A stretch of 52,288 nucleotides of DNA, from positions 1-52,288 of the forward strand of contig JALHOZ010000028.1 in assembly GCA_022842725.1 (NCBI GenBank), read 5' to 3'. Each line of letters begins with the position of its first letter. The stretch's first letter is position 1. The DNA comes from Saprospiraceae bacterium. GTDB taxonomy: Bacteria > Bacteroidota > Bacteroidia > Chitinophagales > Saprospiraceae. Below, one piece after another: positions 1,167 through 46,911 of the stretch. Both the position numbers and the translations under genes were made by a program. Under the pieces are notes generated by a model. That model ran no database searches and was not told where the DNA came from. It saw only the letters and a list, made by a program, of their open reading frames with translations.

Positions 1167-2459
1167 TTAATCCTTAATCCTCCCCGTCTTCACCAAATGT
1201 AATCGCTGCCACTTCGTCAAAATATTGCCCGGGCGGAAGGTAATGTACATGATGACCAGTTGATAAAATAATATGCCATAATTGGACTCTCCAAAGATGC
1301 CAAATTCTGTAAACGAATTGATGATCAACGGAATAAGCAGACAAAAAAGCATGAGCTTTTTTTCAGCATTCTCCCTCATGATACCTCTTATTGTAAATAG
1401 CATCTGAAACAACACAATAGTGATGCCGACCAAACCAAGATTCATCAGTACCTGCATAAAAGTATTATGGGTCATCTTGCCAGGGTAAGTATAAGCACTT
1501 TGAAAATATTCTTTATAGTCGATGCGCATAAAACCAAAACCCAATAGCGGTTCACGCGGCAAACCTTCATTGATCAATGCCTGCCAAAAGGGCAACCTTC
1601 CTGTCAGGGTAAACACCTCTTCCATTCGCTCCGGATCACCATCTTTTAATACCACTTTATAAATAGCAATTGGTGCGACCAATATCATAACCACAATGGC
1701 AGCTACAGCAATTTTTTTTTGTTCGGATTGCAACACGTGAAATCCAATAATAAGTAATGCTCCAATCAAGGATGACCTCGAGCCAGTAGCAAAAAGACCA
1801 TAAAAAAGGATTAATAATTTAAATATTGTCCACCATTTTTTGTGATTTCTTCTAATGTCAAACATCAGTCCGGCAACACCTACACCGGCAAGCATACCCA
1901 ACTCATTGGGATTCATCATGTAACCGCCCAATCGCGCTTCTTCACCACCATGGGTCAACCGGTAAAACACATCAGGATTGACATACATGCCTATCACAAA
2001 AATCAAAATGAGCACAAACGCTGCGTTGCCTAAGAGATTGTAAAGACGGATAGGATGGTCAGGAAAAAACTGATCTAATAAATACAAACTTTTGATAAAG
2101 AAAAAACAAAAGACCAATGTTTGTGACGTCATAAACCATTGTAATGCACTGTAACCTACATTGGTGCTCCACATAAAAGATGCAAATCCAAGCAACAAAT
2201 ATATGCCGTAAAAAACCATCGAGAGAATGTTGTTGGTTTTAAGATTGTCAGCAGCACCGTATTGAATGATACTCTTATAAACATACCAGGAGGCATAGAG
2301 CATTCCCATTCTGCCCACCACTTTGATGACTCTGGTAATAGCTACATTTTCACTCCAGGTAAAAAAACATGCCGTCATCAAAAGCAAAATCAGCATCAAT
2401 TGCCAATTGATCTTTTTCAGGAAAATGTTATGGTCTTTGTTTGATAATGCTATATTCAT
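1167..2459 (-). CDS. O-antigen ligase/polymerase-type membrane protein (Wzy/WaaL-like)
   Basis: A 430-residue polytopic inner-membrane protein with about 11-12 hydrophobic helices and a large periplasmic loop near residues 270-330. This is the layout of the Wzy_C/O-antigen ligase family, which polymerises or transfers lipid-linked oligosaccharides. Typical family signatures are the G-S-R-S/T motif (ATGSRSSLIGA) and a loop with H-N-T-F (MTHNTFMQVLMNLG). It starts directly after the TAG of the upstream glycosyltransferase. It is the last gene of the exopolysaccharide operon, so it most likely acts as the polymerase. The alternative, a ligase, cannot be separated by sequence inspection. Confidence 0.82.
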   Translation of the reverse strand: MNIALSNKDHNIFLKKINWQLMLILLLMTACFFTWSENVAITRVIKVVGRMGMLYASWYVYKSIIQYGAADNLKTNNILSMVFYGIYLLLGFASFMWSTNVGYSALQWFMTSQTLVFCFFFIKSLYLLDQFFPDHPIRLYNLLGNAAFVLILIFVIGMYVNPDVFYRLTHGGEEARLGGYMMNPNELGMLAGVGVAGLMFDIRRNHKKWWTIFKLLILFYGLFATGSRSSLIGALLIIGFHVLQSEQKKIAVAAIVVMILVAPIAIYKVVLKDGDPERMEEVFTLTGRLPFWQALINEGLPREPLLGFGFMRIDYKEYFQSAYTYPGKMTHNTFMQVLMNLGLVGITIVLFQMLFTIRGIMRENAEKKLMLFCLLIPLIINSFTEFGIFGESNYGILFYQLVIMYITFRPGNILTKWQRLHLVKTGRIKD

Positions 2460-3557
2460 CTATGTATATAATTCATCATATTGGTCCACAAGGACAGACC
2501 AGGAAAATTTTTGTTCCAACATCTTTTGCGCACCTGTAACAAATGATGCAGTTTGCTGATTTTTGTAAATTTTAAATAATCTACAAATAGCGTCCAACAA
2601 TGAACTTACATCATTATCTTCAATAGCTATACCTGCCTGAAAATCAGAGACATATTCTGCCACATTGGTAGCCTGAGTAACAATCGTTGGCACTCCAAAT
2701 GCCGCTGCCTCAAGGACTGCTGTAGGCAATCCTTCATTTCTCGATGGGTGAGCAAATACATGCATTTTGCTTAAAAGTTCGTCTTTTTCCTGACCGAATT
2801 TTTTTCCCCATAAAACGACGTTGGTAAGCTTTTTTTCTTTTATAAAATTTTCCAGGAAAGATTGCCCTTCTCCTTCACCTATAATCCACAACCTGGTGTC
2901 CGGTTCGTTTTTTTGGAATACATAAAAAGCTTCTAACAATAAATCGAGACCTTTGGTATGTATGTCCAAACGTCCCACAAAACCAATGGTAAAATCTGTA
3001 TTTTTTGTATTTTTTTTAAGTTGGTGAGTATATTGAAAACCATAAGGTAATAAAAATGATGTGCTTGCCGGTGAAATGTTATGAAGTCCGTTTACTTCAC
3101 TTTTACCTATAGAATGAACTTTATATGCTGATTTGAGGAGTCTTTTTTCAAACAAGTTGAAATATATTTTTTTTGTAAATGAACTTCTTTTCATGGCAAC
3201 TTCATTATAAGCTCCGTGAGGCGTCAACACAAATTTTATCTGATTTTTGTTGAAATATTTTGCCAAAGCACTAAAAACAGGAATCCATCCTCCATGTAGG
3301 TGAAAAACAGCGTTCCTGTGGTTTAAAACTGCTTTTTTTAGTGTTTCTGAAACAAAAAAAGGAAATTTAGATGTGTCGAAAAGCTCGGTTTTAAAATTGC
3401 GTTCAGGATAGTCGTGAACAGGGTTTTTTGTGATTCCCCAAACCGCAACATTTTTACCGGCTTTTTTCTGTTCTGTTGCCATATTGTAAACCACTTTATT
3501 GACACCATTCAGTCTGTCCGGATTGGCTTTTCCTAAAACGATGTGGATGATTTCCAT
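2460..3557 (-). CDS. glycosyltransferase family 4 (GT-B fold)
   Basis: A 365-residue GT-B glycosyltransferase. The N-terminal half holds the acceptor domain; the C-terminal half has the GT4 donor-binding signature: IGFVGRLDIHTKGLDLL, then the HPSRNEGLPTAVLEAAAFG segment carrying the E-x7-E motif. The ATG at 3557 (MEIIHIV) is chosen because the family starts right at this beta-strand; a longer reading frame to 3668 would run deep into the flippase gene. With this start the gene overlaps the end of the flippase gene by 25 bp. It is the only glycosyltransferase in the operon, so other sugars must come from enzymes encoded elsewhere. The substrate is not predictable. Confidence 0.88.
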   Translation of the reverse strand: MEIIHIVLGKANPDRLNGVNKVVYNMATEQKKAGKNVAVWGITKNPVHDYPERNFKTELFDTSKFPFFVSETLKKAVLNHRNAVFHLHGGWIPVFSALAKYFNKNQIKFVLTPHGAYNEVAMKRSSFTKKIYFNLFEKRLLKSAYKVHSIGKSEVNGLHNISPASTSFLLPYGFQYTHQLKKNTKNTDFTIGFVGRLDIHTKGLDLLLEAFYVFQKNEPDTRLWIIGEGEGQSFLENFIKEKKLTNVVLWGKKFGQEKDELLSKMHVFAHPSRNEGLPTAVLEAAAFGVPTIVTQATNVAEYVSDFQAGIAIEDNDVSSLLDAICRLFKIYKNQQTASFVTGAQKMLEQKFSWSVLVDQYDELYT

Positions 3558-4750
3558 AAGTTGATATTTTTTAATTTTAAAATGAAGGACAGGTAAGCCA
3601 TTAATACCAATTGCGAACCTATGAGTCCTGAAATGACACCATACAATCCAAACCCTGATATGAGCCACCCGGATGTTAGTAAAGCAAAAACAAGACTTAA
3701 AAAATAAGCGTAGAAAAAATGATTATTCATTTGCAATGACCTGATCAAAAACCGAACGGGTTGGCTGATAAAAATAAAAATGTAAAGAATACTCAGACCT
3801 TTTAAAATATAGGCATATTCTGTATAATCATTTCCCCCAACAAATTTCAATATCGGTGCTGCAAAAATAAAAACAACCAATAAAACTGGAATAAATACAT
3901 AAGCGAGCTTCTGATTCATCTTTTTGAGATAAGTGATGCCTGTAGTTTGACTTTGCTGCATTCTGAGTGCTGTCTGTGGCAAAATATAGTTTTCAAAAGT
4001 TTGTAGTATTACATTTAAAACACCAAAAACGGATTGTCCCAAACGGAGGGCTCCCAAAGCTGCAGTTCCCAGATAATATCCGGAGGCCACCACAAACAGG
4101 TTTCCTGCCCACCATTGACTTAACGCTGTAAAAAACAACCATTTTCCTTCTTTTATGTGACTGGTAATGTATACTTTATACGTAATTAAACTGAAATAAA
4201 ATGGCTTAATTATAAACATAGTAAATACTACTGAAATCAAATAAGCATTTGAAAAATATGGTAACAAGTCGTTAATATTTTTTGCAATTTGTTGTTGAAA
4301 AATATAAAATCCGGTTAGTGTTAATATGGAAGTTAAAATGTCCAAAATCAAAGTGGCTGATATCTTGTCCAATGCCAATAATATCTTTCGACTAAAATCA
4401 TACAAAACGAAACCGATTCCAAATAATACAGCCGCGTTCAGGATGTCAAATGAAAATAAACTGAAAATGCTTTTTAATAACGTGGCAAAAATCAGCAGCA
4501 AAATAATTTGTGCCCAAAAGATAAAACTTATATAACCTTTTGAACGATTAGCCGCAACTTGAAACACCTGAGTTGTCCACGCACTGATGGCACTGATGGC
4601 AAGATATGACACTAAAATAATCGCTGAAAACTCGCCAAAATCGGAGACAGAAAGGTTTCTTGCCACAAGTATAGTCATCAAAAAACTCGTCCCGCTAAAA
4701 ACGGCCTGATCAGCCAAAACCCAAATTTTTGTTTTATTCAAAATTTTCAC
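3533..4750 (-). CDS. polysaccharide flippase (Wzx/MOP superfamily)
   Basis: A 405-residue integral membrane protein with about 12 helices and the N-terminal MOP-superfamily look (VLADQAVFSGTSFLMTILVAR, LSVSDFGEF). Such proteins flip undecaprenyl-linked oligosaccharide across the inner membrane. Its start is GTG at 4750 inside a GTGA overlap with the stop of the upstream chain-length gene, which argues for translational coupling. It lies between the chain-length protein and the glycosyltransferase in an exopolysaccharide operon, consistent with a Wzx role. Confidence 0.87.
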   Translation of the reverse strand: MKILNKTKIWVLADQAVFSGTSFLMTILVARNLSVSDFGEFSAIILVSYLAISAISAWTTQVFQVAANRSKGYISFIFWAQIILLLIFATLLKSIFSLFSFDILNAAVLFGIGFVLYDFSRKILLALDKISATLILDILTSILTLTGFYIFQQQIAKNINDLLPYFSNAYLISVVFTMFIIKPFYFSLITYKVYITSHIKEGKWLFFTALSQWWAGNLFVVASGYYLGTAALGALRLGQSVFGVLNVILQTFENYILPQTALRMQQSQTTGITYLKKMNQKLAYVFIPVLLVVFIFAAPILKFVGGNDYTEYAYILKGLSILYIFIFISQPVRFLIRSLQMNNHFFYAYFLSLVFALLTSGWLISGFGLYGVISGLIGSQLVLMAYLSFILKLKNINLWKSSTSF

Positions 4751-6936
4751 TTTCTGATCATATTTTTAATCTGAGCCAATGATTTTTTTGTAAATCTGTA
4801 TGCCTCTAATATTATACTTGGGTTATATCCAGCTCTGTTCACTGCAAAATGAACATTAGATAATTTGTATTCTGATGTCAAAAGATCTACCTCAGTGATT
4901 TTTTTTGCCGGCGTGAGTCTTGTATCAATACATACCACATTCAAGTCGGCAATGGCCATATTCGCTAAAGTAAATGCTTCCCCAAAATCTGTGTTTATGA
5001 TAATGGTTTGATCAAAATTTTTACTTTGATTTTCGATGACACTTTGAATTTCTTCAGTGGTTGTGTAGATCATTTTTGATCTGTACAGTACCAGTTCTGA
5101 TGTTTGACCATTCCGATTTTCAAGGCGCCAAAAGTCATCGCAATGATTGTCATCTGCAAGGCGAACCATCAGGATTTTGCGTCCCTGATTTTGTAAAGTA
5201 CGGATTATCTCTGAAGAAATAAACGAGACTGCATGTTTTTGATTGAAGCCTGTGAAACATATGATCCCATGAGGTTGCATCAATTCTTTAACCTGCCATT
5301 GGGTCACAGCGGTAAGAAAAAATTTGGCTTTTGTTTCGTATTTATTAAATTTCGGCACTGTAGCGATAACCGGGATCATACTGCTCGATTCAACTGTAGA
5401 TATGTCATTGACTCTTGCTTTCATGCTGTGAACGATAAAAATCAACATCATAGCACCAAACATTCCCAATATCACTGCCACACCTTTAATGATGGTTCTG
5501 TTGGGCGATACCGGCATTTTGCTGATGCTTGCCGGCGTGATGATTCTGTGGAAAGAAACCTTAGCAGCTTTAGCGATTTCAGCTTCAATTTTTTTCTGAT
5601 TCAGAAAGTTGTACGATTGTTGATATATTTCAAATTCCCGATTTAAGATCGTCATCATTCTTTCCTTTTCAGGAACGGTGATGAATACTTTTTCAGCTTC
5701 TTCAATGTCATACATTAAATTATTGTATTTGGATTCCAGATTTTTTCTGGTATTTCTGATACTTTCTTTCAGGTATGATGAAATGTCGTTTATCTTATAG
5801 TCGATGGCGATGACTTTTTCATCTTTTGGTGTGTACTCCAATAATAAATCCTTTTTTTCTGATTGAAGTTGTTTGATTTTTTTAATCATTTCTGTAGAAA
5901 GAAGATCTGTAAACGCTTCAAAATTGGGCGCCAGATCTAAAAAATTATTTTTCCCTTTTTCCATATACATATCCAACTCACGGATAGCTTCCAGGCTCAT
6001 TTTGAGATTGGTTTGTTGTATTTTCAGTTGTGAAATTTTTCTCAGGTCAGTCTCTGTTTCCTGTCGGATATTAGTGATATCTTCTCTCTCCCGATAATTG
6101 AGAATGGCCGATTCAGTACCTGCCAGTTTACCACTGATCTCGTTGATGCGGTCATTCAAAAAGTTGCTCGTCACGTCTGCAGCACCAAATTTGGTTTGGA
6201 TGTAATCTTCAATATAAGCTTGAGCCAATGCATTCGGAAAAAGTGCAGCCTTTTCGGGATGTGCGGATTTATAGCTGATTCTGATTACCGGAACATCCTT
6301 GTCTACCGGCGTAACATCAAGATTTTTTAATATTTCACTGAGTTGGCTCTCTTCACTTACAAATGTAAATGTATAATGGTCTGCAATTGTTGTTTTGGGT
6401 TTTGAAAGGATTAAAACTTTGTTTAAAGAAATCAGGAAAGAGGACTGAGCTATATTTATGGTATCACGCAATTGTATTTCATGAGAAGCTCCATCAGGAT
6501 CAATCAAGGTGGCAGATGAAGTGTCTTTGACCATCAATTGAAAAGGTTTATTTAAAAAATGGTCTTCAATATTTATTTTAACTATAATCAATGGAGCATC
6601 GGTAAAAAGTTCTGTTGATTTTAATTTTCCTTGTCGGAAAATAATTGTTTCAAAAGGCACTTTCATCAATGCTTTTTTGATGATAGCATGAGACTTGATC
6701 AGCTCAATTTCTGCATTAATTTTTTGAGTATTGGCAAATACATCCAGATCTTTGTATAAGTTGCTGTTGGGAACACCTTCGTTCAGGTCTGCAAGTCTTA
6801 GTTTTGCAGTACTTTCATACATCGGTGTCACATAAGACAAGTATTTTGAAGCCAACAAATATGCACCAATCATAGCGGCTACTATAATGATCCATCCGCG
6901 CAGATAAGGTTTTATAAAATTGAATTGATTGTCCAT
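4747..6936 (-). CDS. exopolysaccharide chain-length/co-polymerase protein (Wzz/Wzc-like) with degenerate ATPase domain
   Basis: A 729-residue inner-membrane polysaccharide co-polymerase. A Wzz-type N-terminal transmembrane helix lies near residues 13-35, followed by a long periplasmic region with coiled coil (about 260-460, GNVR-like end MMTILNREFEIYQQSYNFL), a second helix near 480-501, and a cytoplasmic domain from about 530. The cytoplasmic part has the position and strand pattern of a BY-kinase but lacks a P-loop: where GxxxxGK[ST] is expected there is FTGFNQKHAVSF (near 560-571), and Walker A' is ILMVRLADD with no DxD. No Tyr-rich tail is present. It may therefore regulate chain length without kinase activity. 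Its stop overlaps the flippase start by 4 bp, and it begins 17 bp after the Wza-like gene. Confidence 0.88.
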   Translation of the reverse strand: MDNQFNFIKPYLRGWIIIVAAMIGAYLLASKYLSYVTPMYESTAKLRLADLNEGVPNSNLYKDLDVFANTQKINAEIELIKSHAIIKKALMKVPFETIIFRQGKLKSTELFTDAPLIIVKINIEDHFLNKPFQLMVKDTSSATLIDPDGASHEIQLRDTINIAQSSFLISLNKVLILSKPKTTIADHYTFTFVSEESQLSEILKNLDVTPVDKDVPVIRISYKSAHPEKAALFPNALAQAYIEDYIQTKFGAADVTSNFLNDRINEISGKLAGTESAILNYREREDITNIRQETETDLRKISQLKIQQTNLKMSLEAIRELDMYMEKGKNNFLDLAPNFEAFTDLLSTEMIKKIKQLQSEKKDLLLEYTPKDEKVIAIDYKINDISSYLKESIRNTRKNLESKYNNLMYDIEEAEKVFITVPEKERMMTILNREFEIYQQSYNFLNQKKIEAEIAKAAKVSFHRIITPASISKMPVSPNRTIIKGVAVILGMFGAMMLIFIVHSMKARVNDISTVESSSMIPVIATVPKFNKYETKAKFFLTAVTQWQVKELMQPHGIICFTGFNQKHAVSFISSEIIRTLQNQGRKILMVRLADDNHCDDFWRLENRNGQTSELVLYRSKMIYTTTEEIQSVIENQSKNFDQTIIINTDFGEAFTLANMAIADLNVVCIDTRLTPAKKITEVDLLTSEYKLSNVHFAVNRAGYNPSIILEAYRFTKKSLAQIKNMIRK

Positions 6937-6953
6937 TTCTTTTATGTAATTGG

Positions 6954-7700
6954 TTAAAAAGCGCCCATAAAAATGGCGGCTGAAGTCAATGCTGTGGTGA
7001 AAGGTATAATCGTTGAAATCCTTTTATCAAATTCTTTATACTTTTTGGATGGTACGACTACTACGTCACCCGGATAGAGATTGATATTTCGTTTTAATAA
7101 ATCACTTCCTTTGCTCAGGTCAATATTAGCGACATACACATGTGCGCCAACTTGTCTTAATACTTTTACATATTTAGGATTGGCATAAAACTCAAGCCCT
7201 TTGCAACGGGCGATCATTTCCATCAAAGTGTTTCTCTCTTTATCTACATTGATGACTTGCGGGTCTCTCACTTCACCTAAGATGGTGATTTCTCTGTTTA
7301 ATACTTTGATATCAATAACTGGTGTTTTGATCCAGTCACTGTAAATGCTTTTCAACGTATCTTTCAATTGAATAATGGTCATTTTTTCAACTTTAAAAGT
7401 ACCTATTTTTGGAATTTCCACATTTCCATTAGCATCGACCATAAGCCATTTGCCATACACTTCATTGGAGTTGTAGATGCCGTACGTAGATCCTACGCTG
7501 ATATCGTCCTGTCCCCAGACTGAAATGGTGATTTTATCATCCTTTCTGATGTGATATTGATAAGATGTATCAGACCAAAAAATATTGTCCAAAACGGTTG
7601 TGGAATGATTTGTATTTGGCCCGACAAATAAGTTGGTTGTTTTACATGAAGAAAATGTCAAAAGAAAAATCAGAGACATTAATAGCGAATACTTCATCAT
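6954..7700 (-). CDS. polysaccharide export outer-membrane lipoprotein (Wza-like)
   Basis: A 248-residue lipoprotein. The signal peptide ends in the lipobox FSSC near residue 19. A polysaccharide-export domain follows (RKDDKITISVWGQDDISVG) and then an SLBB-like domain (ITILGEVRDPQVINVDKERN) and GDVVVVP. It would form the periplasmic/outer-membrane channel that works with the co-polymerase encoded next. The C-terminus is short (FTTALTSAAIFMGAF), as in Bacteroidota homologues, without the alpha-helical barrel tail of E. coli Wza. Its ATG overlaps the stop of the preceding response regulator (TAATG), so these genes are translationally linked. Confidence 0.9.
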   Translation of the reverse strand: MMKYSLLMSLIFLLTFSSCKTTNLFVGPNTNHSTTVLDNIFWSDTSYQYHIRKDDKITISVWGQDDISVGSTYGIYNSNEVYGKWLMVDANGNVEIPKIGTFKVEKMTIIQLKDTLKSIYSDWIKTPVIDIKVLNREITILGEVRDPQVINVDKERNTLMEMIARCKGLEFYANPKYVKVLRQVGAHVYVANIDLSKGSDLLKRNINLYPGDVVVVPSKKYKEFDKRISTIIPFTTALTSAAIFMGAF

Positions 7701-8131
7701 TATATAAATTTGAAAATACTTTTTAATAATGAAGGTTTTCTTTCTTTGAGAAGCTCTCTGATTTCTGTTATTTTGACCAACACATTTTTGATGTTGGATT
7801 CCAGATTTTTATTTTTACGGATGTAGTCGAAAGCTCCGTGTTTCAGCGTTTCTACTGCGGTATCAATATTTTCCTGAGCAGATACCATGACCACAAATGT
7901 ATTAGGATTGTAGCGCTTGATTTTTCGGAGGGTTACCTGGCCGGTATAAATATCCATTTGATGGTCTAAAAAGATTACATCCGGCTTTTGATGAATCCGG
8001 TCGAGACAATCCACGCCACTTTCAAAACATGTAATATTATTTATCCCTGCCTCTGAAAGAATTTGTTTCATAATCTCCAGGTGGAACCGGTCGTCATCTA
8101 CTACAAATACTGATTGAAAATTGTGTTGCAT
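7700..8131 (-). CDS. single-domain response regulator (REC), first gene of the exopolysaccharide operon
   Basis: A 143-residue stand-alone receiver domain: acidic pocket DDD at 12-14, phospho-acceptor Asp56 in VIFLDHQMD, a Ser in the VVMVSAQE strand, and Lys in the DYIRKNK segment. No output domain follows, only a short basic tail. The ATG at 8131 is preferred over an in-frame start at 8197 because the receiver fold starts there and because a candidate sigma-54 promoter (8158-8174) lies in the interval. It is translationally coupled (TAATG) to the Wza-like gene. It probably receives phosphate from the Hpt of the neighbouring H-NOX-associated kinase and could act on the export machinery or as a phosphate sink. 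Confidence 0.88.
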   Translation of the reverse strand: MQHNFQSVFVVDDDRFHLEIMKQILSEAGINNITCFESGVDCLDRIHQKPDVIFLDHQMDIYTGQVTLRKIKRYNPNTFVVMVSAQENIDTAVETLKHGAFDYIRKNKNLESNIKNVLVKITEIRELLKERKPSLLKSIFKFI

Positions 8132-8157
8132 ACTATTCTTTATTTTTGAAATAGTAT

Positions 8158-8174
8158 ATGCGAAAGGCAGGCCA
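8158..8174 (-). promoter_or_regulatory. candidate sigma-54 (-24/-12) promoter of the exopolysaccharide operon
   Basis: On the minus strand the sequence TGGCCTGCCTTTCGCA has GG and GC exactly 10 bp apart (GG at 8173-8172, GC at 8161-8160) and matches TGGC and T-GCA of the TGGCAC-N5-TTGCA consensus; the A and C of GGCAC and one T of TTGC differ. Transcription would start near 8148, about 17 nt before the ATG at 8131. It lies next to genes for an NtrC-type sigma-54 activator, which is the reason to take an imperfect match seriously. Confidence 0.5.
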
Positions 8175-8228
8175 AAACACAGTTGCTTGATAATCAATAA
8201 AATATAATTTAAAACATTAAGAGTTAAT

Positions 8229-8261
8229 TTCCATAAATTGGAATAATGTTCATTTATGGAA
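8229..8261. promoter_or_regulatory. palindrome, candidate activator (UAS) site upstream of the sigma-54 promoter
   Basis: TTCCATAAAT (8229-8238) and ATTTATGGAA (8252-8261) are perfect 10-bp inverted repeats with 13 bp between them. The centre is about 97 bp upstream of the predicted start of transcription, the usual distance for bacterial enhancer-binding proteins. No T run follows on either side, so it is not a good terminator for the kinase gene. Two direct AACAGGTT copies lie just beyond it (near 8265 and 8278). The remaining part of 8262-8435 shows nothing else. Confidence 0.45.
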
Positions 8262-8435
8262 TAAACAGGTTTCTAAAACAGGTTAACTATTTTAATTTAA
8301 AATTTTGTTAAAAGGTAAAAGCAGATCAATGATAACTCATCAAGTTGATCAGGATTGATTTATAAAAGAACCTTGTAGAATAATTTTCAAAAAACACAAA
8401 AAATAAAATTTCTTGTTTGAATTATTTTTTGTAAC

Positions 8436-11400
8436 TTAATCTTTTTCCAATTTGCCCGCTACTTCTCTCAAAACACGGACAGTTATTTTAACCCAACTTT
8501 CCAGCTCTGTATGTGATCCGTTCTCAACTTCATATTTTTCTATATTTCTGACCACATCTTTGAGAGAAATAATGCCCAACTGATCGATACTTGGTTTTAT
8601 TTTGTGGGCCAGTTTTTTTATTTTTTCAGTATCGTCATGATCTATGGCATCTTCGAATGCTTCAGTATTCTCTGCTGTTAGTTTAACAAAAACAGCTACC
8701 ATCTTTTTCACAAAATCTTCATTGCCGCGGCTTAATTGCCGGAGTTGACTTAAGTCAAAGAGTGGTGCTTCGGTAATACGTTTTTCATCATTTCCAAATT
8801 CGGGTTTTTCGACTTTCAAAACATCATGAGAAAGACTCAGCACGTGTTCAATTTTTCTGAAAAAATCCTGCTCATCATAAGGTTTTGTGATAAAATCATT
8901 CATACCTTTCTGCAGGTACAAATCAATATCATGTTTGAAAGCATTGGCCGTAAGTGCAATAATAGGTGTATGGTTTTGGAGTTTTTCTCTGATAAAAGTA
9001 GTGGCCTCTACACCATCCATAACCGGCATTTGGATATCCATCAAAACAAGGTCGAAATCTTGTTTTTGAATAAGTTCGGTAGCTATCAAACCATTTTCAG
9101 CTTCAACCGTTTTAAAACCCAAAAAGTCGAGACTTTGTATAGCGATAAATCTGTTCATCTCATTATCTTCTACTAAAAGCGCTCTTTTGCCTTTAAATGA
9201 TCCTTCTTTGATCTTTTGGCTGTTGGAAACCAAACTTTCAGGATTACCAATTGATAAAGTCAATTCAAAACTGCAGACAGTCCCTTGATTTTTGGTACTT
9301 TTTACCTCCATCGTTCCTCCCATGAGACGGATCAAATCGTTAGAGATTGCCATCCCCAGACCTGTACCTTCATATTTCCGGTTTGAGGTATTTTGTTCCT
9401 GTGAAAACTTATCGAATATCCTGGAAACAAACTCCTCAGACATGCCGATACCTGTATCCGCAACTTCAAATTTTAATGTCTGAGTTAATTCATCTTCATT
9501 GACCAATTCTACTGAAACATGTATACTCCCTCTATCGGTAAATTTGATGGCATTACCTACCAAATTGATCAGGACTTGTCGCAATCTGGTATCATCACCT
9601 TTAAGTACAGGTTTAATATCCGGGCTGACGTTAAGCTTGAATTCCAGGTTTTTGTCTTTAGCCTGGGAATACATGATGGAATGAACGTTGTAGGTCAGGG
9701 CACCGGGACTGAAGGATTCTTCAAAGATCTCCATATCACCGGACTCGATTTTGGCAATGTCCAGCACATTATTGAGGATGGTGAGCAAGTGTTTTGCAGA
9801 ACTTTCTGATTGTTTGACATAAAAGTGCTGGTCTGTGGTCAGATTTTCTTTGGTCAGTTGTCGGATCATACCGATGATGACGTTGAGCGGCGTCCGGATT
9901 TCATGACTCATATTGGCCAAGAACAGTTCTTTGGCTTTGGCCGCAGCTTCTGCGAAGGTTATGGCTTTGGCCAATTCCTGTTCAAGCCTTTTTTGCTCTG
10001 TGATATCAAGATGAATACCGATGCTACCTATTAAATGACCTTTATCATTGTAGTTTGGTGCTCCGCTCACAAACCACCAATGCGGTTTTTTATATTTATC
10101 GGTTACTTCTATCTCATAACTATCTGAAACTGACTGAATTCTGATTTCATTTTTTTCATAAATAATGTTTCTCTGACTTTCTTTGACAAAAAGTTCGGCA
10201 GCTTTTTTTCCTTTCAGCTCTTGCAAACCATAGCCGGACATATCACAAAAACTTTGATTGGCATAAATGATTTCATCATTCAAATCCACTTCCAAAAGTC
10301 CCAGATTCATGTTGGCTATGATGTTTCGGTATTTTTCTTCCTGAATTCTGAGTTGGTTTTCCCATTTTTGCCGGTTGCGTATATTGATCAGCATTTGTCC
10401 GAAAAGAAACAACAACCTTTTTTCTTTGTCACTATAATCATGATGTTTTTTAACAGAGTCAAATCCCACGAACCCAGTCAATTCTTTGCCATCCAACATT
10501 GGTATGGCAATCAAACTTTTAATGCCTTGTGGTTCAAGGATGGATTTCAGACCACCTTCATCATCATCGTTAAGTGCCGGTACATCCGGTATATAAAAGG
10601 CTTCACCTTTTTGGTGTTGTTCTACCCACTGAGGAAAATACTCCATGGGCACTTTTTGAAGGTTGTTTATTTCAGGTTCGACACCTTCATTGCACCATTC
10701 ATACGTATTGGATGTGGTGGCTGAATCAAAATCATAATCAAAAATATATGATCTGTCTGCAGCAACAAAAAGACCCATTTTTTCAAGGGATTTGTTTATG
10801 GTGTTTTTAACATCCTTAGGGTCGAGATTGATATAAGTGGATGCTATATCAATCAGGGCCTCCTGTAATAACAACTCCTGAGCAAGTTCTTCTTCCGTCT
10901 GACATTGTTGGGTTCGGTCAGAAACGATACCGTCTAATCTTACAGGTACCTTTTCCTCATCAAAAATAAGTTTTCCATTATTATTTATCCATTTTAATGT
11001 ACCATTTGGGGTGATGATTCTGTATTTAACATCGAATTCACCTTTTTCCTTTAATTGATTTTGGATTTCATTGATGACATATACGTCATCCTTAGCAATT
11101 ATTTTTTTCCACAAATCAAAATCGTTAATAAATGCATTTGATTCAACCTCAAACAGCATAGATATTGAGGGTGTAATAAATATTACTTCCTGTTCAGGAA
11201 GTTTTACAGAATACACCACATCCGTCATTTCGTTAAAGATATTTTCAAGTTGCGTTTTTGCGAGGTTCAATTCAGCGTTAGTCCCTTTTATATGGGCTGA
11301 TTGATTGTCTATTTTTTTTATTAATTCAGTTAATTCATTTTTATGAATATCTGCTTGTTTTAAAACATGTAAATAATCAAAGGTAGGGTCATAGGCAGGA

Positions 11401-11762
11401 AAATCACTGATTTGCAATTTATAGGGCTTTAATTGTTCTATGTCCATAACCCATAAACTTCCCAAAAATATCAGATGATCGTCATCGGAGAGTTTCCTGA
11501 ATTGCCCTCTGAATAAAAATCCGCTTTCAATGTGTCTGATATAAAACCCTTCATTCAGAAGGGAGGAAATCACGTTGTAATCTACCATTTCAAGATATGG
11601 CCGCTGAATCTGAAAACAATGAAGAAAATCTAAGTCCTTTGAATTTCCTATTATTTTCTCAATACTTTTGCCAAAGTCTTTAATGTTGAGTGATGAATCT
11701 ATAACGATAGAATATGGAAAAATTTCTATCAATAAATTACTTTCTTTTATTGAATTTTCCAT
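8436..11762 (-). CDS. H-NOX-associated hybrid histidine kinase (HNOBA-PAS-GAF-PAS-HisKA-HATPase-REC-Hpt)
   Basis: A 1108-residue soluble hybrid kinase with no transmembrane segments. Residues 1-135 match the H-NOX-associated (HNOBA) domain: QIQRPYLEM, FLFRGQF, HLIFLGSLWV and the ISDFPAYDPTFDYL stretch, then coiled coil (about 135-175). A PAS domain lies at about 172-288, GAF at 297-462 and a second PAS at 475-592. HisKA carries His620 (MSHEIRTPLN), the HATPase has LVGNAIKFTD and GTGLGMAI, REC has Asp909 (LVLMDIQMPVMDG) and the C-terminal Hpt has His1053 (LAHKIKPS). Its start overlaps the H-NOX gene by 16 bp. The known H-NOX partners of this type are inhibited or activated by the haem protein on NO binding, so the kinase probably relays NO state through its Hpt to the two nearby response regulators. 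Confidence 0.93.
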   Translation of the reverse strand: MENSIKESNLLIEIFPYSIVIDSSLNIKDFGKSIEKIIGNSKDLDFLHCFQIQRPYLEMVDYNVISSLLNEGFYIRHIESGFLFRGQFRKLSDDDHLIFLGSLWVMDIEQLKPYKLQISDFPAYDPTFDYLHVLKQADIHKNELTELIKKIDNQSAHIKGTNAELNLAKTQLENIFNEMTDVVYSVKLPEQEVIFITPSISMLFEVESNAFINDFDLWKKIIAKDDVYVINEIQNQLKEKGEFDVKYRIITPNGTLKWINNNGKLIFDEEKVPVRLDGIVSDRTQQCQTEEELAQELLLQEALIDIASTYINLDPKDVKNTINKSLEKMGLFVAADRSYIFDYDFDSATTSNTYEWCNEGVEPEINNLQKVPMEYFPQWVEQHQKGEAFYIPDVPALNDDDEGGLKSILEPQGIKSLIAIPMLDGKELTGFVGFDSVKKHHDYSDKEKRLLFLFGQMLINIRNRQKWENQLRIQEEKYRNIIANMNLGLLEVDLNDEIIYANQSFCDMSGYGLQELKGKKAAELFVKESQRNIIYEKNEIRIQSVSDSYEIEVTDKYKKPHWWFVSGAPNYNDKGHLIGSIGIHLDITEQKRLEQELAKAITFAEAAAKAKELFLANMSHEIRTPLNVIIGMIRQLTKENLTTDQHFYVKQSESSAKHLLTILNNVLDIAKIESGDMEIFEESFSPGALTYNVHSIMYSQAKDKNLEFKLNVSPDIKPVLKGDDTRLRQVLINLVGNAIKFTDRGSIHVSVELVNEDELTQTLKFEVADTGIGMSEEFVSRIFDKFSQEQNTSNRKYEGTGLGMAISNDLIRLMGGTMEVKSTKNQGTVCSFELTLSIGNPESLVSNSQKIKEGSFKGKRALLVEDNEMNRFIAIQSLDFLGFKTVEAENGLIATELIQKQDFDLVLMDIQMPVMDGVEATTFIREKLQNHTPIIALTANAFKHDIDLYLQKGMNDFITKPYDEQDFFRKIEHVLSLSHDVLKVEKPEFGNDEKRITEAPLFDLSQLRQLSRGNEDFVKKMVAVFVKLTAENTEAFEDAIDHDDTEKIKKLAHKIKPSIDQLGIISLKDVVRNIEKYEVENGSHTELESWVKITVRVLREVAGKLEKD

Positions 11763-12298
11763 ACGACTTTAATAATTTCGTGTGTGTTTTCACCCTGGAT
11801 AGATTCCAGGTGTTGAGTGGTTACATTTGTATTAAAAAACTTTCCCAATCCTGTCATTAAACCATAAACAAATGCAGTGAGCCCTTTTCTTTTTGAAAAA
11901 TAATGTAAATGCAGAGATCTGTCTTCGACGTTGGTAACCTTAAATTCCGGTGGGGTTAGTTTGGGATACATCATCATGACTCTATTGTGAAAGGAAGGGA
12001 GATTGAGCATAAATGTCCTAAAATTGTCTCCGCCACTTTCCAGCATATAGCCATAATGGTTTTTACCTGTATGGAGAATCCACCATTCGCCAAAAAGCCT
12101 CAGTACATCGTCCACACTGACATTGAGTTCCTTAGCAATAGTACCGGCAAGTTGATAGGTGACATCGTCATCATAACTTTCACTGCTGATAAAGTATTCG
12201 ATATTGATATTGCTTTTGGACTTAATGTCTTCCCATTTTTCTTGTCCGTAATTTGCCAATACCAACTCTTCGATGGATTTGTTTACGATTCCGTACAT
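11747..12298 (-). CDS. H-NOX haem nitric-oxide sensor protein
   Basis: A 183-residue stand-alone H-NOX (HNOB) domain. The haem ligand is His104 in LPSFHNRV, and the haem-propionate motif YxSxR is present as Y133-F-S-K-R137. The conserved Pro-rich TPPEF follows the ligand helix, and the length matches bacterial stand-alone H-NOX proteins. Family knowledge: such proteins bind NO (sometimes O2) and control a partner kinase or cyclic-di-GMP enzyme. The overlap with the HNOBA-kinase gene and the adjoining NtrC-type regulator gene fits a three-part NO signalling operon. No obvious distal-pocket Tyr could be assigned by eye, so O2 discrimination is not addressed. Confidence 0.93.
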   Translation of the reverse strand: MYGIVNKSIEELVLANYGQEKWEDIKSKSNINIEYFISSESYDDDVTYQLAGTIAKELNVSVDDVLRLFGEWWILHTGKNHYGYMLESGGDNFRTFMLNLPSFHNRVMMMYPKLTPPEFKVTNVEDRSLHLHYFSKRKGLTAFVYGLMTGLGKFFNTNVTTQHLESIQGENTHEIIKVVWKIQ

Positions 12299-12304
12299 GT
12301 TTTA

Positions 12305-13678
12305 CTATTTTAATTTGATTTCTCCACTTTTGATCATGTTATAAATCTTAGATTTTCCGATATCCAGTTTTTCAGCAACAAAAACTACATTTTCATCGTA
12401 TTTTTTCAGATAAGATCCGATAATTTCTATTTCAAATTCTTTTAAGGTTTTTTCGCCGGAAGAGTAAGGTTTTGTGTCTCCTAATTGATAAAAACTCAGA
12501 TCTTCGGCTTTGATTTCACGATCATCCGACATGACACATGCCAAATCAATGACAGCTTTGAGTTCCCGAACATTGCCCGGCCAGGTATACTTCCTAAGTT
12601 TGGTTTTGGCAGTTTCGTTTAATGTCAAAGATTTTGAATGATTGTTTTTGGCAAAATCATCCATAAAATGTTTAGCCAAAATGATGACATCATTGCCCCG
12701 ATCTCTCAGTGGCGGAAGTTCAACAGGCAATCCCACCATCCTGAAAAACAGATCTTCCCGGAAACGACCGGCTTTGACTTCCTCAGCCATATTTTTGTGT
12801 GTGGCAGAGATCAGTCGGATATCCACTTTGATGGGTTTATTGCCTCCAACTCTTATCACCTCTCTTTCCTGTATCACCCTCAGAAGTTTACTTTGCATTG
12901 ACAAATCCAATTCTCCGATTTCATCCAAAAACAAAGTGCCACCCTGAGCTTCTTCAAACTTACCGATTTTTGTACTGACGGCTCCCGTAAATGCTCCTTT
13001 TTCATGACCAAACAATTCTGATTCTGCCAATTCATGAGGGATAGCTCCCATGTTCACGGCAACAAATGGCTTTTTTCGACGTTCACTGTTAAAATGAATA
13101 GCTTTGGCATATACCTCCTTGCCTGTACCGGTCTCCCCGGTGATGGAAACGTTTATATTGGAATTGACAGCTTTTTGAAGCAAATGAAAGGTTTTTTTAA
13201 TGGCATCACTCTGGCCGATGATGCTGCTTTCAAAACTGTATTTTTGACCTAATTGTTCCTTAAGCTCTTCAACCTCCTGTCGTAAATTCAGATTTTCGCG
13301 GATGTGGATGATGGATTTCCAAAGCTGATCTTTTGTATGGTCGTCTTTGATTATATAATCTTTGGCACCGGCTTTGAGTAATTCTACTGCAACACTGATT
13401 TCTTCCTGAGCACTGATTACAATCACTGGCAGATTTTTGTCGCGGGCCTTGATTTCTTTGAGCAGTTTGTCACCACTCATATCCGGCAACCCAAAATCCA
13501 TACATACCAAATCCGGTTTTTTGAAAACATTTTCCAATAAGGACTTTCCCGTTTTGAACAGTTCCAAATCATAATCAGGATTCATACCCAAATGGTGGAT
13601 AATGATCTGCCCGTACCAGGGATCGTCTTCTACCACAAAAATTTTAAAAGGAATATTTTTTAATTTCATCCCGATCAT
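12305..13678 (-). CDS. NtrC-type sigma-54-dependent response regulator
   Basis: A 457-residue REC-AAA+-HTH protein. The receiver holds Asp61 (LVCMDFGLP). The AAA+ domain has Walker A GETGTGKE at 181-188, the sigma-54 contact loop GAFTGA at 228-233, Walker B GGTLFLDEIGELD and the R-finger region. The C-terminal HTH is short, VAEKLDIGKSKIYNMIKSG. All elements for sigma-54 activation are intact. ATG codons at 13678 and 13669 are both possible; the second begins MKLKNIPFKIFVVEDD and would suit the receiver better. It is the first gene of the operon with the H-NOX sensor and kinase, and its likely targets include the promoter at 8158-8174. Confidence 0.93.
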   Translation of the reverse strand: MIGMKLKNIPFKIFVVEDDPWYGQIIIHHLGMNPDYDLELFKTGKSLLENVFKKPDLVCMDFGLPDMSGDKLLKEIKARDKNLPVIVISAQEEISVAVELLKAGAKDYIIKDDHTKDQLWKSIIHIRENLNLRQEVEELKEQLGQKYSFESSIIGQSDAIKKTFHLLQKAVNSNINVSITGETGTGKEVYAKAIHFNSERRKKPFVAVNMGAIPHELAESELFGHEKGAFTGAVSTKIGKFEEAQGGTLFLDEIGELDLSMQSKLLRVIQEREVIRVGGNKPIKVDIRLISATHKNMAEEVKAGRFREDLFFRMVGLPVELPPLRDRGNDVIILAKHFMDDFAKNNHSKSLTLNETAKTKLRKYTWPGNVRELKAVIDLACVMSDDREIKAEDLSFYQLGDTKPYSSGEKTLKEFEIEIIGSYLKKYDENVVFVAEKLDIGKSKIYNMIKSGEIKLK

Positions 13679-14254
13679 TGACTTTTACAACTTATAGATA
13701 TTCATGTACAGAGATTACCCCTATGAATGTTTGTGTTAATTTTATAAAAATGAAATCTGAAATAACATTCTTCATAAAAAACCCATTACTCTGTTTAAAA
13801 TGATAATTTTATAAATAATGCAAATTTATAATTTGTTTTTCATAACAGACATATTATTATATATTTCTTTTTATAAAGTCATGTTTAATCCATACGCAAC
13901 ATGTCTAAATGCTCATCAGAATCGTATCTTTTTCAAACAAAAAGGTATTACGTTGTGATTTTTTGATGCCAAAATCCCGTCGGTTTCATTTTTAAACCAA
14001 TTTTCATGAATTTGACAATCAAACATGTTACATGTCTGCAATCTTCATTTCACTACTTTTTTAGATGTGACGTCTGTAAGTGAGGTTTTATCAATGTTTT
14101 GATTTCTTTTGAATTAGCTTCCAGCAGCCGCCATATGGCATAAGGACGAAAACAAACCATACAGCATGTTCTATTTTTTCTTCAAAATCAATTTAGCAAT
14201 CAAATTGCACATTGCAAATACACCGGATGTTTAAAAAAACCTTCTTTACACCCA
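13679..14254. other. intergenic region, no gene recognised
   Basis: An AT-rich stretch upstream of the NtrC/H-NOX/kinase operon and downstream of the WG-repeat-like gene. The minus strand has a lone -7-like element TAAATTTG (13828-13821) without a TTTG 19 bp upstream. No reading frame here has family-like content. A promoter for the signalling operon must lie here or very near. Confidence 0.5.
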
Positions 14255-15538
14255 TCACATTGCCTTCCATACGATCCTCTTTTTATAGTTATAGATGCGT
14301 AAGGTTTCAGAGGCAGTATCGTTTTCCTGTTGGTATACATGGTTGTGATTGACGATGATGATATGTTCATCAAAATAGTTGATCGGCCATTCTGAGGTGA
14401 AAACAAACTTTTTTTTGTGTAAATCATAAATTCCGAAACCATACATTCTGTTGTCAAGAGTTTGTAATTGGGTCGCCACCAAAGCCAGATGTCCTTTGGT
14501 ATACCAAATATTCAGTTTTTGATCCTGGTTTGTGATTTCTTGTCCTTCCTTGTTGATATATTTTGAAGCTACCGGTACAGAGTAGCTGTTTCTTCCATTT
14601 TTTTGGGCCTCTTCCCATAGTTTTTCAGGGTCAGCACCATCGTATTTTATAAGAGCAATACCATTTTTAAAATTTCTGGTTTCAAGGCCCGTTTCTGTCG
14701 TGGACTTCCAGATAATTTTCCCGGTCGTATCTAAATACATGTGTGTCTCTTGTTTTTTTCCCGGTTCCTGATATTTAACCAGACAAATCCCTTCGTGAAA
14801 CATTCCTGCTCTGTTGATTTGGACACCAGGAAACACCTCTGAGAGATCCAAAATGGTTTTGCCGGAGGAGTTAATATAATAATAACTGCCTCTTCGGTTT
14901 TTGACACGAATCAAACCGTCATGTCCGGCACTTTCGTACACCATTCCTTCAGGGTCTTCTCTGTCTTCAAAGGTAAAAGTTGTTTTTCCTGTCGAATCGA
15001 TAATTTCCCATGTATCATAAATTTTAAGCAGTAAGTGGCCTTTTACGAATCTGGTCCTTCGGGTTATTCCTATATGGTTGTATATGATTTGACCGTGTTT
15101 ATTCACTATATCATATCCTTTGTTTTTATCGACCGGATAAAGGATCGTACATCCTTCACCCATATTTTCCGCATAATAATATATCGAAGACCAATCCAAA
15201 ACATTACCGTTTCTGTCGACAGTATAAAATTTTTTGCTTTCCTGAGAAAAAACAAACAATTTTGCTCCGGGATGATTCAAACAATTGATATCCTGACTCA
15301 TCCGGTAACAATCATCAAAGGTTTTGATCACTTTACCTTTCCTATTTATAATGGTCAGATATGAAAAATCTTCATTTTCATCCTGCTTATGACGAATGAC
15401 AAAACGGAGAGAATCTTCAGGAAGGGTGATTTTTTTATGTTTTACTGTCAAAACACCTGTCCCGGCAGATAGAGGCAAACAGGACAAAAACAAGAGAAAA
15501 AAACCGATCAACAAACTTCCTGAAAAAAAACTTTTCAT
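14255..15538 (-). CDS. secreted WG-repeat-like protein
   Basis: A 427-residue protein with a clear Sec signal peptide (MKSFFSGSLLIGFFLLFLSC, then A-G), perhaps a lipoprotein through LFLSC. The mature part is built of repeated strands of the type Y-x-I-I/V-x-x-x-G-K-x-I (TIINRKGKVIKTF, YDIVNKHGQIIYN, YYINSSGKTILDL, MYLDTTGKIIWKS, YINKEGQEI), the pattern of WG/KWG beta-repeat proteins. These form propeller-like or beta-solenoid surfaces; no catalytic residues are recognised. It is monocistronic, with no functional link visible to either neighbour. Confidence 0.72.
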   Translation of the reverse strand: MKSFFSGSLLIGFFLLFLSCLPLSAGTGVLTVKHKKITLPEDSLRFVIRHKQDENEDFSYLTIINRKGKVIKTFDDCYRMSQDINCLNHPGAKLFVFSQESKKFYTVDRNGNVLDWSSIYYYAENMGEGCTILYPVDKNKGYDIVNKHGQIIYNHIGITRRTRFVKGHLLLKIYDTWEIIDSTGKTTFTFEDREDPEGMVYESAGHDGLIRVKNRRGSYYYINSSGKTILDLSEVFPGVQINRAGMFHEGICLVKYQEPGKKQETHMYLDTTGKIIWKSTTETGLETRNFKNGIALIKYDGADPEKLWEEAQKNGRNSYSVPVASKYINKEGQEITNQDQKLNIWYTKGHLALVATQLQTLDNRMYGFGIYDLHKKKFVFTSEWPINYFDEHIIIVNHNHVYQQENDTASETLRIYNYKKRIVWKAM

Positions 15539-31519: not shown

Positions 31520-32011
31520 ATGGTAAAAATCAAAATTTTTGCAGCATGTATAGCCATGATACTGATATGGTCTTGTGGCAATAAACAATCATCAGCTCCG
31601 GGCACTTCGGGAGATGCACCCGGCAGCAGTACCTCTGCGGAAGCAGCCGATTCAGACTATGACCCTAAAAGAGGCGAAGGAAAATTTAATGAAAGCAACC
31701 TCACGCTTGAAACATCTTTGAATGTACCCATGGCTGAAGCCGGCGAAATTGCATCAGGTGTCAAATGTACTTCATGTCACAAACTATCAGAAGAAAGGTT
31801 GGTAGGACCAGGTTGGAAAGGAGTTACGACCAGAAGAACACCCCATTGGATTATGAATTTTATAACAAATCCTGAACCCATGATTGATAAAGACCCTGAA
31901 CTTCAGGCACAACTTGAACTGTGTCTTGTAAGAATGCCCAATCAAAGTCTGACAGAAGAAGAAGCCAGAAATATATTGGAATTTATGCGTAAAAATGATG
32001 GTATTAATTAA
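31520..32011 (+). CDS. cytochrome c lipoprotein of the nos cluster
   Basis: A 163-residue monohaem c-type cytochrome. Lipoprotein signal ends IWSC at residue 19, followed by a Ser/Gly/Ala-rich linker. The haem site is CTSCH and the distal ligand is the Met in VRMPNQSLTEEEA. It is anchored in the periplasm and most likely donates electrons to the NosZ encoded 16 bp downstream, an arrangement common for clade II nos clusters of Bacteroidota. Maturation would use the ResB/CcsA-type system that begins at 51837. Confidence 0.9.
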   Translation: MVKIKIFAACIAMILIWSCGNKQSSAPGTSGDAPGSSTSAEAADSDYDPKRGEGKFNESNLTLETSLNVPMAEAGEIASGVKCTSCHKLSEERLVGPGWKGVTTRRTPHWIMNFITNPEPMIDKDPELQAQLELCLVRMPNQSLTEEEARNILEFMRKNDGIN

Positions 32012-32027
32012 ATAAAAATCAAAAAAA

Positions 32028-34019: not shown

Positions 34020-34034
34020 TTAACAACATAATGT

Positions 34035-34077
34035 AAAAAAAGGGGACAGTCATTTTGATGTGTCTGTCCCCTTTTTT
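34035..34077 (+). terminator. terminator between nosZ and the nosL fusion gene
   Basis: GGGGACAG (34042-34049) and CTGTCCCC (34064-34071) form a perfect stem, preceded by a run of A and followed by six T. It would stop or attenuate transcription after nosZ, so the maturation genes are read at a lower level or from their own promoter in 34078-34143. Confidence 0.9.
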
Positions 34078-34143
34078 ACTCACCGGGTGCTGTATCATAT
34101 TTTTTTCAGGGATTAGAATTTATTTTCCATACAAAATTACATC

Positions 34144-35157
34144 ATGAATGTCTTTTCAAAATCATCAGTAATTTTACTGATAGTGGCCGGATTTTGTATC
34201 CTGTCAGCTATTTATTTTCCCATTTGGCGTATAGAGTTGGATGCTCCCCAATATCCCGAAGGACTTGCTCTTTTGATTTATGCCAACAAAATGGGTGGAG
34301 ATGTCGAGATTATCAACGGATTGAACCACTACATCGGTATGAAAACATTACATGCCGAAGAATTTATAGAGTTTACCGTTCTACCCTATATTTTGGGATT
34401 TTTTGGACTATGGTCGATTGTAACCGGTATATATTTTAAAAGTAAAAAATCTGTTTTGATTTTATTGATAACCTTTGCTTTATTCGGCATTTTGGCAATG
34501 TATGACTTCTGGCGTTGGGAATACGAATACGGACATAATCTTGATCCTACAGCTGCCATCATTGTGCCCGGTATGGCTTATCAACCTCCTTTGATTGGAT
34601 TCAAACAATTGCTCAATTTCGGAGCTTATTCCATCCCTGATACAGGAGGTTGGCTGATGCTTACCGGAGGAATTTGTATAGCTTTTGTTTATCTGCAGGT
34701 TTCAGGCTTTGTAAATAGATTTAGAAAAAATACAACATTACCCCTATTGGTATGGCTGTTGCCCCTATTTTTTATTTTTTCATGCAGCAATGATGGTCCT
34801 CAAAAAATATCCTTACATAAAGATACCTGTGCCTTTTGTAAAATGAATATTTCCGAAGGACATTTTGCAGCACAGATATTAACTAAAAAAGGACGATATT
34901 ATCATTTTGATGATATCACCTGCATGTCGGCTTTTCACCTCGAAAATCCCGACAAAGAGGTCAAAAGTTTTTTTGTGCATTATTACCCGGGAGAAAACGA
35001 ACTCATTCCCGCGGAATCCGCCTTTTACATCAAAGGAGGAAACCTAAAAAGTCCGATGGCCGGAAATATTGCAGCTTTCAAAACCTCGGATGAAGCAGAA
35101 AAATACAGGTTGGATTTATCTGCAGAACGTATTGATTGGTTGGAAATTTTACAATAA
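34144..35157 (+). CDS. nosL: membrane domain-NosL fusion, copper chaperone for NosZ
   Basis: A 337-residue two-part protein. Residues 1-200 have four hydrophobic helices (about 7-28, 76-97, 103-120, 168-188) and a conserved extracytoplasmic loop (APQYPEGLALLIY, then LNHYIGMKTL). A further hydrophobic segment (199-213) leads to FIFSCSND, exactly like an internal lipoprotein signal, with Cys214. From there the sequence is NosL: the copper-binding DTCAFCKM (Cys229, Cys232, Met234) and the YHFDDITCM motif. NosL delivers copper to the CuZ site. The fusion keeps NosL at the membrane and adds a domain of unknown role, perhaps in electron or copper supply. nosD begins 9 bp downstream. Confidence 0.9.
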   Translation: MNVFSKSSVILLIVAGFCILSAIYFPIWRIELDAPQYPEGLALLIYANKMGGDVEIINGLNHYIGMKTLHAEEFIEFTVLPYILGFFGLWSIVTGIYFKSKKSVLILLITFALFGILAMYDFWRWEYEYGHNLDPTAAIIVPGMAYQPPLIGFKQLLNFGAYSIPDTGGWLMLTGGICIAFVYLQVSGFVNRFRKNTTLPLLVWLLPLFFIFSCSNDGPQKISLHKDTCAFCKMNISEGHFAAQILTKKGRYYHFDDITCMSAFHLENPDKEVKSFFVHYYPGENELIPAESAFYIKGGNLKSPMAGNIAAFKTSDEAEKYRLDLSAERIDWLEILQ

Positions 35158-35165
35158 CAGACACC

Positions 35166-42898: not shown

Positions 42899-42923
42899 TA
42901 TTTTGATATAGAATTCTTTAATG

Positions 42924-43383: not shown

Positions 43384-43401
43384 ATTTATCAAATTTTAAA
43401 A

Positions 43402-46906: not shown

Positions 46907-46911
46907 ATCAA

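Follow-up and report, generated by a model that had tools for sequence, protein, structure and literature searches.

Gene content of the locus

We analysed a 52,288-nt stretch of DNA (the window) from a Saprospiraceae bacterium, part of contig JALHOZ010000028.1 (C28) within a 4.6-Mb draft genome (GCA_022842725.1), in which genes for a candidate nitric oxide (NO) sensing system adjoin genes for polysaccharide production. All lie on the minus strand, in the transcription order NtrC-type sigma-54 response regulator, H-NOX, HNOBA hybrid kinase, lone receiver, OPX export protein, Wzz co-polymerase, Wzx flippase, family-4 glycosyltransferase (GT4) and Wzy polymerase (Table 1). The regulator and H-NOX genes are 6 nt apart, the H-NOX and kinase genes overlap by 16 nt, and a non-coding stretch of 304 nt then precedes the lone receiver, a spacing suggestive of separate transcription of a sensor-regulator operon and a polysaccharide operon. 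An earlier note on this DNA had listed an H-NOX gene, an overlapping HNOBA/Hpt kinase, a GAFTGA regulator, a lone receiver and polysaccharide genes on one strand, and all of these were found by Pfam searches and motif checks.

Table 1. Coordinates of the genes and predicted regulatory sites in the window
Feature	Position	Strand	Basis
NtrC-type sigma-54 response regulator (REC, AAA+ with GAFTGA, short HTH)	12305..13678	-	Pfam, motifs, tree
H-NOX, Alr2278/soluble guanylate cyclase (sGC) beta-1 type, His104, YFSKR	11747..12298	-	Pfam, motifs, solved-chain comparison
Hybrid histidine kinase HNOBA-PAS-GAF-PAS-HisKA-HATPase-REC-Hpt	8436..11762	-	Pfam, motifs
Predicted enhancer palindrome TTCCAATTTATGGAA	8229..8243		Pattern search, comparison of relatives
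Integration host factor (IHF)-like site TATCAAGCAACTG, one mismatch to WATCAANNNNTTR	8180..8192	-	Position hand-counted
Predicted sigma-54 promoter TTGGCCTGCCTTTCGCA (GG-N10-GC)	8159..8175	-	Pattern comparison
Lone receiver, 143 residues from ATG 8131, amphipathic C-terminal tail, first polysaccharide-operon gene	7700..8131	-	Pfam, alignment, motifs
OPX polysaccharide export protein (Poly_export, SLBB)	6954..7700	-	Pfam
Wzz/GNVR co-polymerase	4747..6936	-	Pfam
Wzx-type flippase, weak Pfam match	3533..4750	-	Pfam, position in relatives
GT4 glycosyltransferase, start uncertain	2460..3668	-	Pfam
Wzy-type polymerase (Wzy_C)	1167..2459	-	Pfam

The regulator carries a REC domain and a Sigma54_activat domain with GAFTGA at residue 228 and Walker motifs, and its HTH match (HTH_17) is weak and under the cut-off. 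With one rpoN match in the genome, the components of a sigma-54 enhancer-binding response regulator are all present. The H-NOX protein scores 169 bits against PF07700 (cut-off 25.5), retains the proximal His104 and YFSKR at 133-137, and has no Cys. Its nearest solved chains are Alr2278 (E 1.9e-42) and then sGC beta-1 (1.4e-29), with further bacterial chains, presumably of the Shewanella type, matching only at 5e-10. The kinase has the domain content of an HNOBA-type H-NOX kinase (HNOBA 68.8 bits, cut-off 23.4) and all of the H, N and G boxes, the REC Asp and the Hpt His motifs, its Hpt match of 24.4 bits being slightly below the Pfam cut-off of 24.6.

In the polysaccharide operon, the OPX, Wzz/GNVR, Wzy_C and GT4 matches pass the Pfam cut-offs, and a Pfam scan of the Wzz/GNVR co-polymerase returned no kinase domain. 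The flippase scores 19.7 against Polysacc_synt_3, below the cut-off of 23, but its gene lies between Wzz and GT4 in relatives too, so that the parts of a Wzx/Wzy locus (OPX, Wzz, Wzx, Wzy and a glycosyltransferase) are present with Wzx under its Pfam cut-off. The GTG start of GT4 at 3668 is doubtful, as it implies a 136-nt overlap with Wzx. The lone receiver was listed as a frame of 165 residues from a TTG; its start at ATG 8131 was set by homologues and by the predicted promoter.

Conserved gene order and predicted sigma-54 promoters

We compared 131 H-NOX neighbourhoods (window included, one duplicate excluded), in which short contigs make the counts lower bounds. A sigma-54 regulator is present in at least 25 of them and an OPX gene in at least 11, the window included in both. 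The idea that H-NOX is always paired with such a regulator was therefore rejected (only 25 of the 131 loci). The gene set is nevertheless kept in Saprospiraceae, Chitinophagales and Cyclobacteriaceae, so that adjacency in relatives, set beforehand as the refuting test, turned out to be conserved in several families. The order from regulator through H-NOX, kinase, receiver, OPX, Wzz, Wzx and GT4 to Wzy is uninterrupted in L031 (Chitinophagales) and L063, and recurs in L034 (Saprospiraceae) with two inserted genes, one of AbiEii type, between kinase and lone receiver (14018-15488). Three Cyclobacteriaceae loci (L032, L033 and L042, from Aquiflexum and Cognataquiflexum) contain a large inserted gene, the stretch compared ending in Wzz, and in L158 the gene order is permuted.

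Upstream of the lone receiver, relatives have in common a palindrome and a TTGGCA box, and the window's site has GG-N10-GC at -24/-12. Scanning the window for the plain sigma-54 consensus gave no excess over chance (6 matches against 4.67 expected; 25 against 25.66); the promoter stood out only through the comparison of relatives. A search for the palindrome and TGGC only (gap up to 75), the -12 G not being part of the pattern, gave 39 matches in 27 loci chosen by hand. We dropped three without an open reading frame (ORF) start and, in L072, one that overlapped a match on the opposite strand; of the 35 retained, one (L031 13925) is out of register. A G follows GG-N10 in 30 of the 35 sites, compared with 0-13 at the eight neighbouring offsets (-4 to +4), and the second base, after GG-N10-G, is C or T in 20. 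A site with at most one mismatch to WATCAANNNNTTR, which we take to be the IHF consensus, occurs in 27 of the 35 (300 single-base shuffles: mean 5.2, maximum 11), and 19 of these 27 are located at -17 or -18. The gaps between palindrome and box fall into classes of 49-54 (24 sites), 61-65 (4) and 70-73 (7), spaced by roughly one helical turn.

In the window's own genome, TTCCA-N5-TGGAA-N40-70-TTGGC has four matches (reversed control, none). Three are intergenic and precede polysaccharide genes: the site in the window (8171-8243), C13:108402 before a GT4 and a WecA-like transferase gene, and C13:114088 before genes for a 797-residue P-loop protein, a hexapeptide acetyltransferase and GT4; the fourth is inside an ORF. 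Contigs C13 and C28 may adjoin, since a similar second block lies behind Wzy on one contig in G190 and G160. Among 298 genomes of the family, the full promoter pattern matched in 42 (reversed control, 7). It is present in 12 of the 14 genomes whose regulators match best, versus 30 of the 284 others (Fisher p 1e-9; the cut at 14 genomes was placed once the identities were known, where they fall from 58% to 54-56%). Within the best-regulator genomes, 15 of 23 matches share the regulator's contig. Upstream of the G160 receiver the pattern search was without a match; by eye, this region contains two close palindromes and, besides these, TATCAATGATTAA and CTGGCCCAGCTTTTGC (GG-N10-GC), which indicates that the -24 box varies there as it does in the window. 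Sites also precede H-NOX, the lone receiver or genes divergent from the regulator in L052, L054 and L055.

A large FG-GAP/UnbV protein with a type IX secretion system-type tail is encoded near the kinase in L032 (14022-18635, 1537 residues) and L196 (6940-11601, 1553 residues). A palindrome and TTGGCA box lie near these genes, and the protein is a possible matrix component of the same regulon.

Exchange of the sensor beside a retained kinase core

In four genomes (G257, G289, G160 and G116) the slot of H-NOX is occupied by a protein with FIST, the domain found in the NO sensor NosP. The N-terminus of the kinase differs there, while its core, the regulator, the type of promoter and the genes for the polysaccharide are retained. 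G257, which belongs to the same genus as the window's genome, has no H-NOX match. It encodes a regulator 70% identical to ours, a FIST protein, a kinase and, behind the same kind of promoter, the receiver-to-Wzy series in the window's order, the two units lying on one contig on opposite strands. Its kinase is 52.5% identical to the window's over residues 278 to 1087 and unrelated at the N-terminus, where the sensor-coupling part of the window's kinase (about 185 residues) lies. In G289 these parts are distributed over two contigs, and an H-NOX is encoded apart from them; G160 and G116 have regulator, FIST, kinase, receiver, OPX, Wzz, Wzx and GT4 in the order of the window.

Across 26 kinases, the HNOBA part is present in 14 of 22 on the H-NOX side and in none of four on the FIST side, whereas the FIST-type N-terminus is present in three of the four FIST-side kinases (not in G160) and in none of the 22. 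The eight H-NOX-side kinases without HNOBA adjoin another type of H-NOX, which begins MKG instead of MYG; in three of these loci (L100, L121 and L136) a FIST gene lies behind the regulator. In a tree of kinase cores the FIST-side kinase of G116 groups with two H-NOX-side kinases (96% support in the Shimodaira-Hasegawa-like approximate likelihood ratio test), and in a quick tree of 40 regulators, with weak support for 14 of its 37 inner branches, the slot label needs eight changes, with the starred branches forcing at least three for FIST. The slot after the regulator holds H-NOX in 12, FIST in six, an HNOBA kinase in one, a kinase in five and other genes or a contig edge in six of the 30 family loci returned. 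In 17 further loci from a 395-genome sample of the phylum it holds FIST in 10, H-NOX in one, Hpt in one and other genes in five, making FIST the commoner occupant outside the family. NosP was the sole family matched by the FIST proteins (5 of 5).

The sensor slot of this sigma-54 polysaccharide switch thus appears to be exchangeable. As H-NOX is replaced in the same slot by a FIST/NosP-like protein, the exchange points to NO as the input, and NO is the likely common denominator of the exchanged sensors. Six loci (L041, L103, L152, L100, L121 and L136) contain both H-NOX and FIST genes with kinases, possible NO-sensor pairs that share a relay. In L219 (G220), an HNOBA kinase directly follows the regulator with no H-NOX between, and an H-NOX is encoded on another contig.

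A candidate NO-to-matrix circuit and its alternatives

Based on the gene anatomy, promoter architecture, conservation and sensor exchange, all read from sequence, we consider a cyclic-di-GMP-independent route from NO to matrix genes to be the best explanation of the locus, and a rather probable one. We propose that H-NOX would bind haem and NO and control how active the HNOBA hybrid kinase is, from which phosphate would pass through the kinase REC and Hpt to the NtrC-type regulator. The regulator would then bind the TTCCA-N5-TGGAA palindromes and, aided by IHF-type bending, stimulate transcription by sigma-54 RNA polymerase of the operon from receiver to Wzy and of two more operons on another contig. 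Relatives would swap in a FIST (NosP-like) protein with a matching N-terminus on the same kinase core. NO is reported to lower the activity of several H-NOX kinases; our guess, which we favour modestly over the opposite direction, is that it would do so here and hence lower polysaccharide expression.

The genomic context is consistent with an NO signal. A nos cluster at 31520-37884 encodes a cytochrome c, a NosZ-type protein (nos_propeller), NosL, NosD and ABC transporter parts, and the region 40520-47646 encodes a NorB-like NO reductase with a cytochrome-c-like domain, an Rrf2 regulator (perhaps NsrR-like), an anaerobic NRDD and a ScdA/hemerythrin protein. With these genes about 20-30 kb from the sensor set on the same contig, the organism probably handles NO and nitrous oxide. 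GGDEF was found in none of 10 genomes with the regulator-sensor set (10 of the 14 above), EAL and HD-GYP not having been searched, which makes the usual cyclic-di-GMP route unlikely in those genomes and agrees with the earlier note, in which no cyclic-di-GMP enzyme had been visible. That note had also proposed that NO acts through sigma-54 on polysaccharide genes; the promoter, rpoN, conservation and FIST exchange support this wiring, but a general adjacency of H-NOX to such genes did not hold.

Several observations weigh against this circuit, and some of them favour other readings. Most sampled H-NOX loci have another architecture, 106 of the 131 being without a sigma-54 regulator in the stretch compared (some on short contigs), and in several relatives the slot is occupied by something other than an NO sensor. 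By itself, the palindrome is not a rare sequence and is weak evidence (19 places versus 8 in the reversed control). The full pattern is unmatched in G220 and G239 and is missed by the window's own site (TTGGCC), and the receiver promoters of L032, L033 and L042 (gap 82-84, outside the 35) have TTGGCA but no G after GG-N10 (0 of 3). Since the sites are related by descent, the p-values are overstated. The wiring could also be right and the common signal be haem, CO, O2 or redox state, with NO at most one ligand. The FIST proteins in the slot are only distant relatives of NosP (20.5-73.1 bits against profile NF041558, cut-off 450), and the FIST domain of Vibrio cholerae CdpA responds to haem (PMC8846402). 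Yet two types of H-NOX and FIST occupy the same slot, their shared reported ligand is NO, and the NorB-like reductase, NosZ-type protein, Rrf2 regulator and ScdA-type protein are encoded in the same window; we regard a signal other than NO as rather unlikely.

Another sigma-54 activator might control the polysaccharide promoters, with the H-NOX set a neighbour that controls something else. Other activators could bind the palindrome: a first look at the genome gave 37 candidates, of which five were scored and one was above threshold. Moreover, no palindrome precedes the window's regulator gene, the only one below position 16000 being that before the lone receiver. The full pattern, however, tracks the closest regulators and mostly shares their contig, and the additional sites in L052, L054 and L055 precede H-NOX, the lone receiver or regulator-divergent genes; we give this reading little probability. 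It is more improbable still that the gene order arose by chance or hitch-hiking and is functionless: the contigs are draft and H-NOX is usually elsewhere, but the same gene set recurs in several families and with unrelated sensors.

In addition to the main output, the earlier note had suggested a second, post-transcriptional branch through the lone receiver. This receiver has in common with the regulator's receiver a SAQExIxxAVxxLKxGAxDYIxK region, and its switch face is closer to that receiver than to the kinase's own. This is compatible with a single Hpt for the two receivers, of which the lone one is probably a second target. Tails like that of the window's lone receiver (KPSLLKSIFKFI) occur in 10 of the 14 lone receivers aligned, namely those preceding OPX or Wzx, with L199 an exception that has no evident tail, and in seven of nine tails tested the hydrophobic moment was reached by fewer than 5% of shuffles. 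The lone receiver may act at the membrane. An AlphaFold model gives a receiver fold (mean predicted local distance difference test score, pLDDT, 70.9) with most of the tail (130-137, 139-142) under 50, so that sequence is the sole basis for the possible membrane binding. The motif and the tail suggest the branch, but the tail is modelled with low confidence. The receiver could instead act as a sink for phosphate or compete with the regulator's receiver, a role in keeping with the likeness of the two and to which we give somewhat less than an even chance. It is also in keeping with this role that the lone receivers of G110, G101 and G112, with no OPX or Wzx seen beside them, end before the tail; the tails next to OPX or Wzx argue for a separate branch.

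In the cited literature, NO controls biofilms mainly through cyclic-di-GMP. The Hno network of Shewanella oneidensis (PMC8738867, PMC8846402) likewise has a stand-alone H-NOX, a kinase (HnoK), several response regulators including the transcription factor HnoC, and a biofilm output. There, cyclic-di-GMP is turned over by HnoB and HnoC acts on hno genes, whereas for the window we predict as output a sigma-54 activator whose sites lie at polysaccharide operons; the cyclic-di-GMP enzyme output that is the hallmark of that network was not seen in the GGDEF search. The NosP/NahK/NarR and NosP/NosK/NosR systems (PMC11237717, PMC12570481, PMC8846402) have a FIST protein in a kinase operon, NO input and biofilm output, their outputs being cyclic-di-GMP enzymes; here FIST relatives occupy the H-NOX slot, and sigma-54 and polysaccharide genes are the predicted output. 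In Vibrio, H-NOX/HqsK of V. parahaemolyticus and NosP/VpsS of V. cholerae both feed quorum-sensing relays (PMC8738867), so that analogous pathways are served by two NO sensors in related species. The Vibrio kinases differ, unlike the present case in which sensor and kinase N-terminus change on one core in one locus. The PrsK/PrsR pair of PEP-CTERM exopolysaccharide loci (PMC1569441, PMC9850573) also combines an NtrC-type regulator near exopolysaccharide genes with a two-part cis site (activator motif and -24/-12). PrsK is a transmembrane kinase with an unknown stimulus, and the targets are PEP-CTERM genes. We rejected the identification of the window's regulator as PrsR (TIGR02915), as it scores 361.2 bits against the NCBI equivalog cut-off of 502.6. 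No description of the present circuit was found among the papers listed, judged by title and start of abstract, with subscription papers mostly outside the scope; what appears to be new is the combination of known sensors with a known kind of activator, with sensor exchange.

If the proposed circuit is correct, NO sensing would act on matrix genes at the level of transcription, in organisms that gave no GGDEF match. We further speculate, giving the idea an even chance, that this is a plug-in circuit found throughout Bacteroidota, in which unrelated NO sensors (sGC-type H-NOX, the second H-NOX type and FIST/NosP-like proteins) and kinase N-termini are exchanged on one core and sigma-54 activator, replacing cyclic-di-GMP, with a membrane-bound receiver as a fast second branch. 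The natural exchange of H-NOX and FIST in one slot indicates that sequence comparison can suggest the signal of a kinase, and provides matched pairs for studying the coupling of sensor and kinase. Named Aquiflexum and Cognataquiflexum strains carry the same genes, and the predicted promoter offers a way to test the idea in them. At the far end of the polysaccharide operon, between the contig start and Wzy, the window also encodes a small GIY-YIG protein (183-554).

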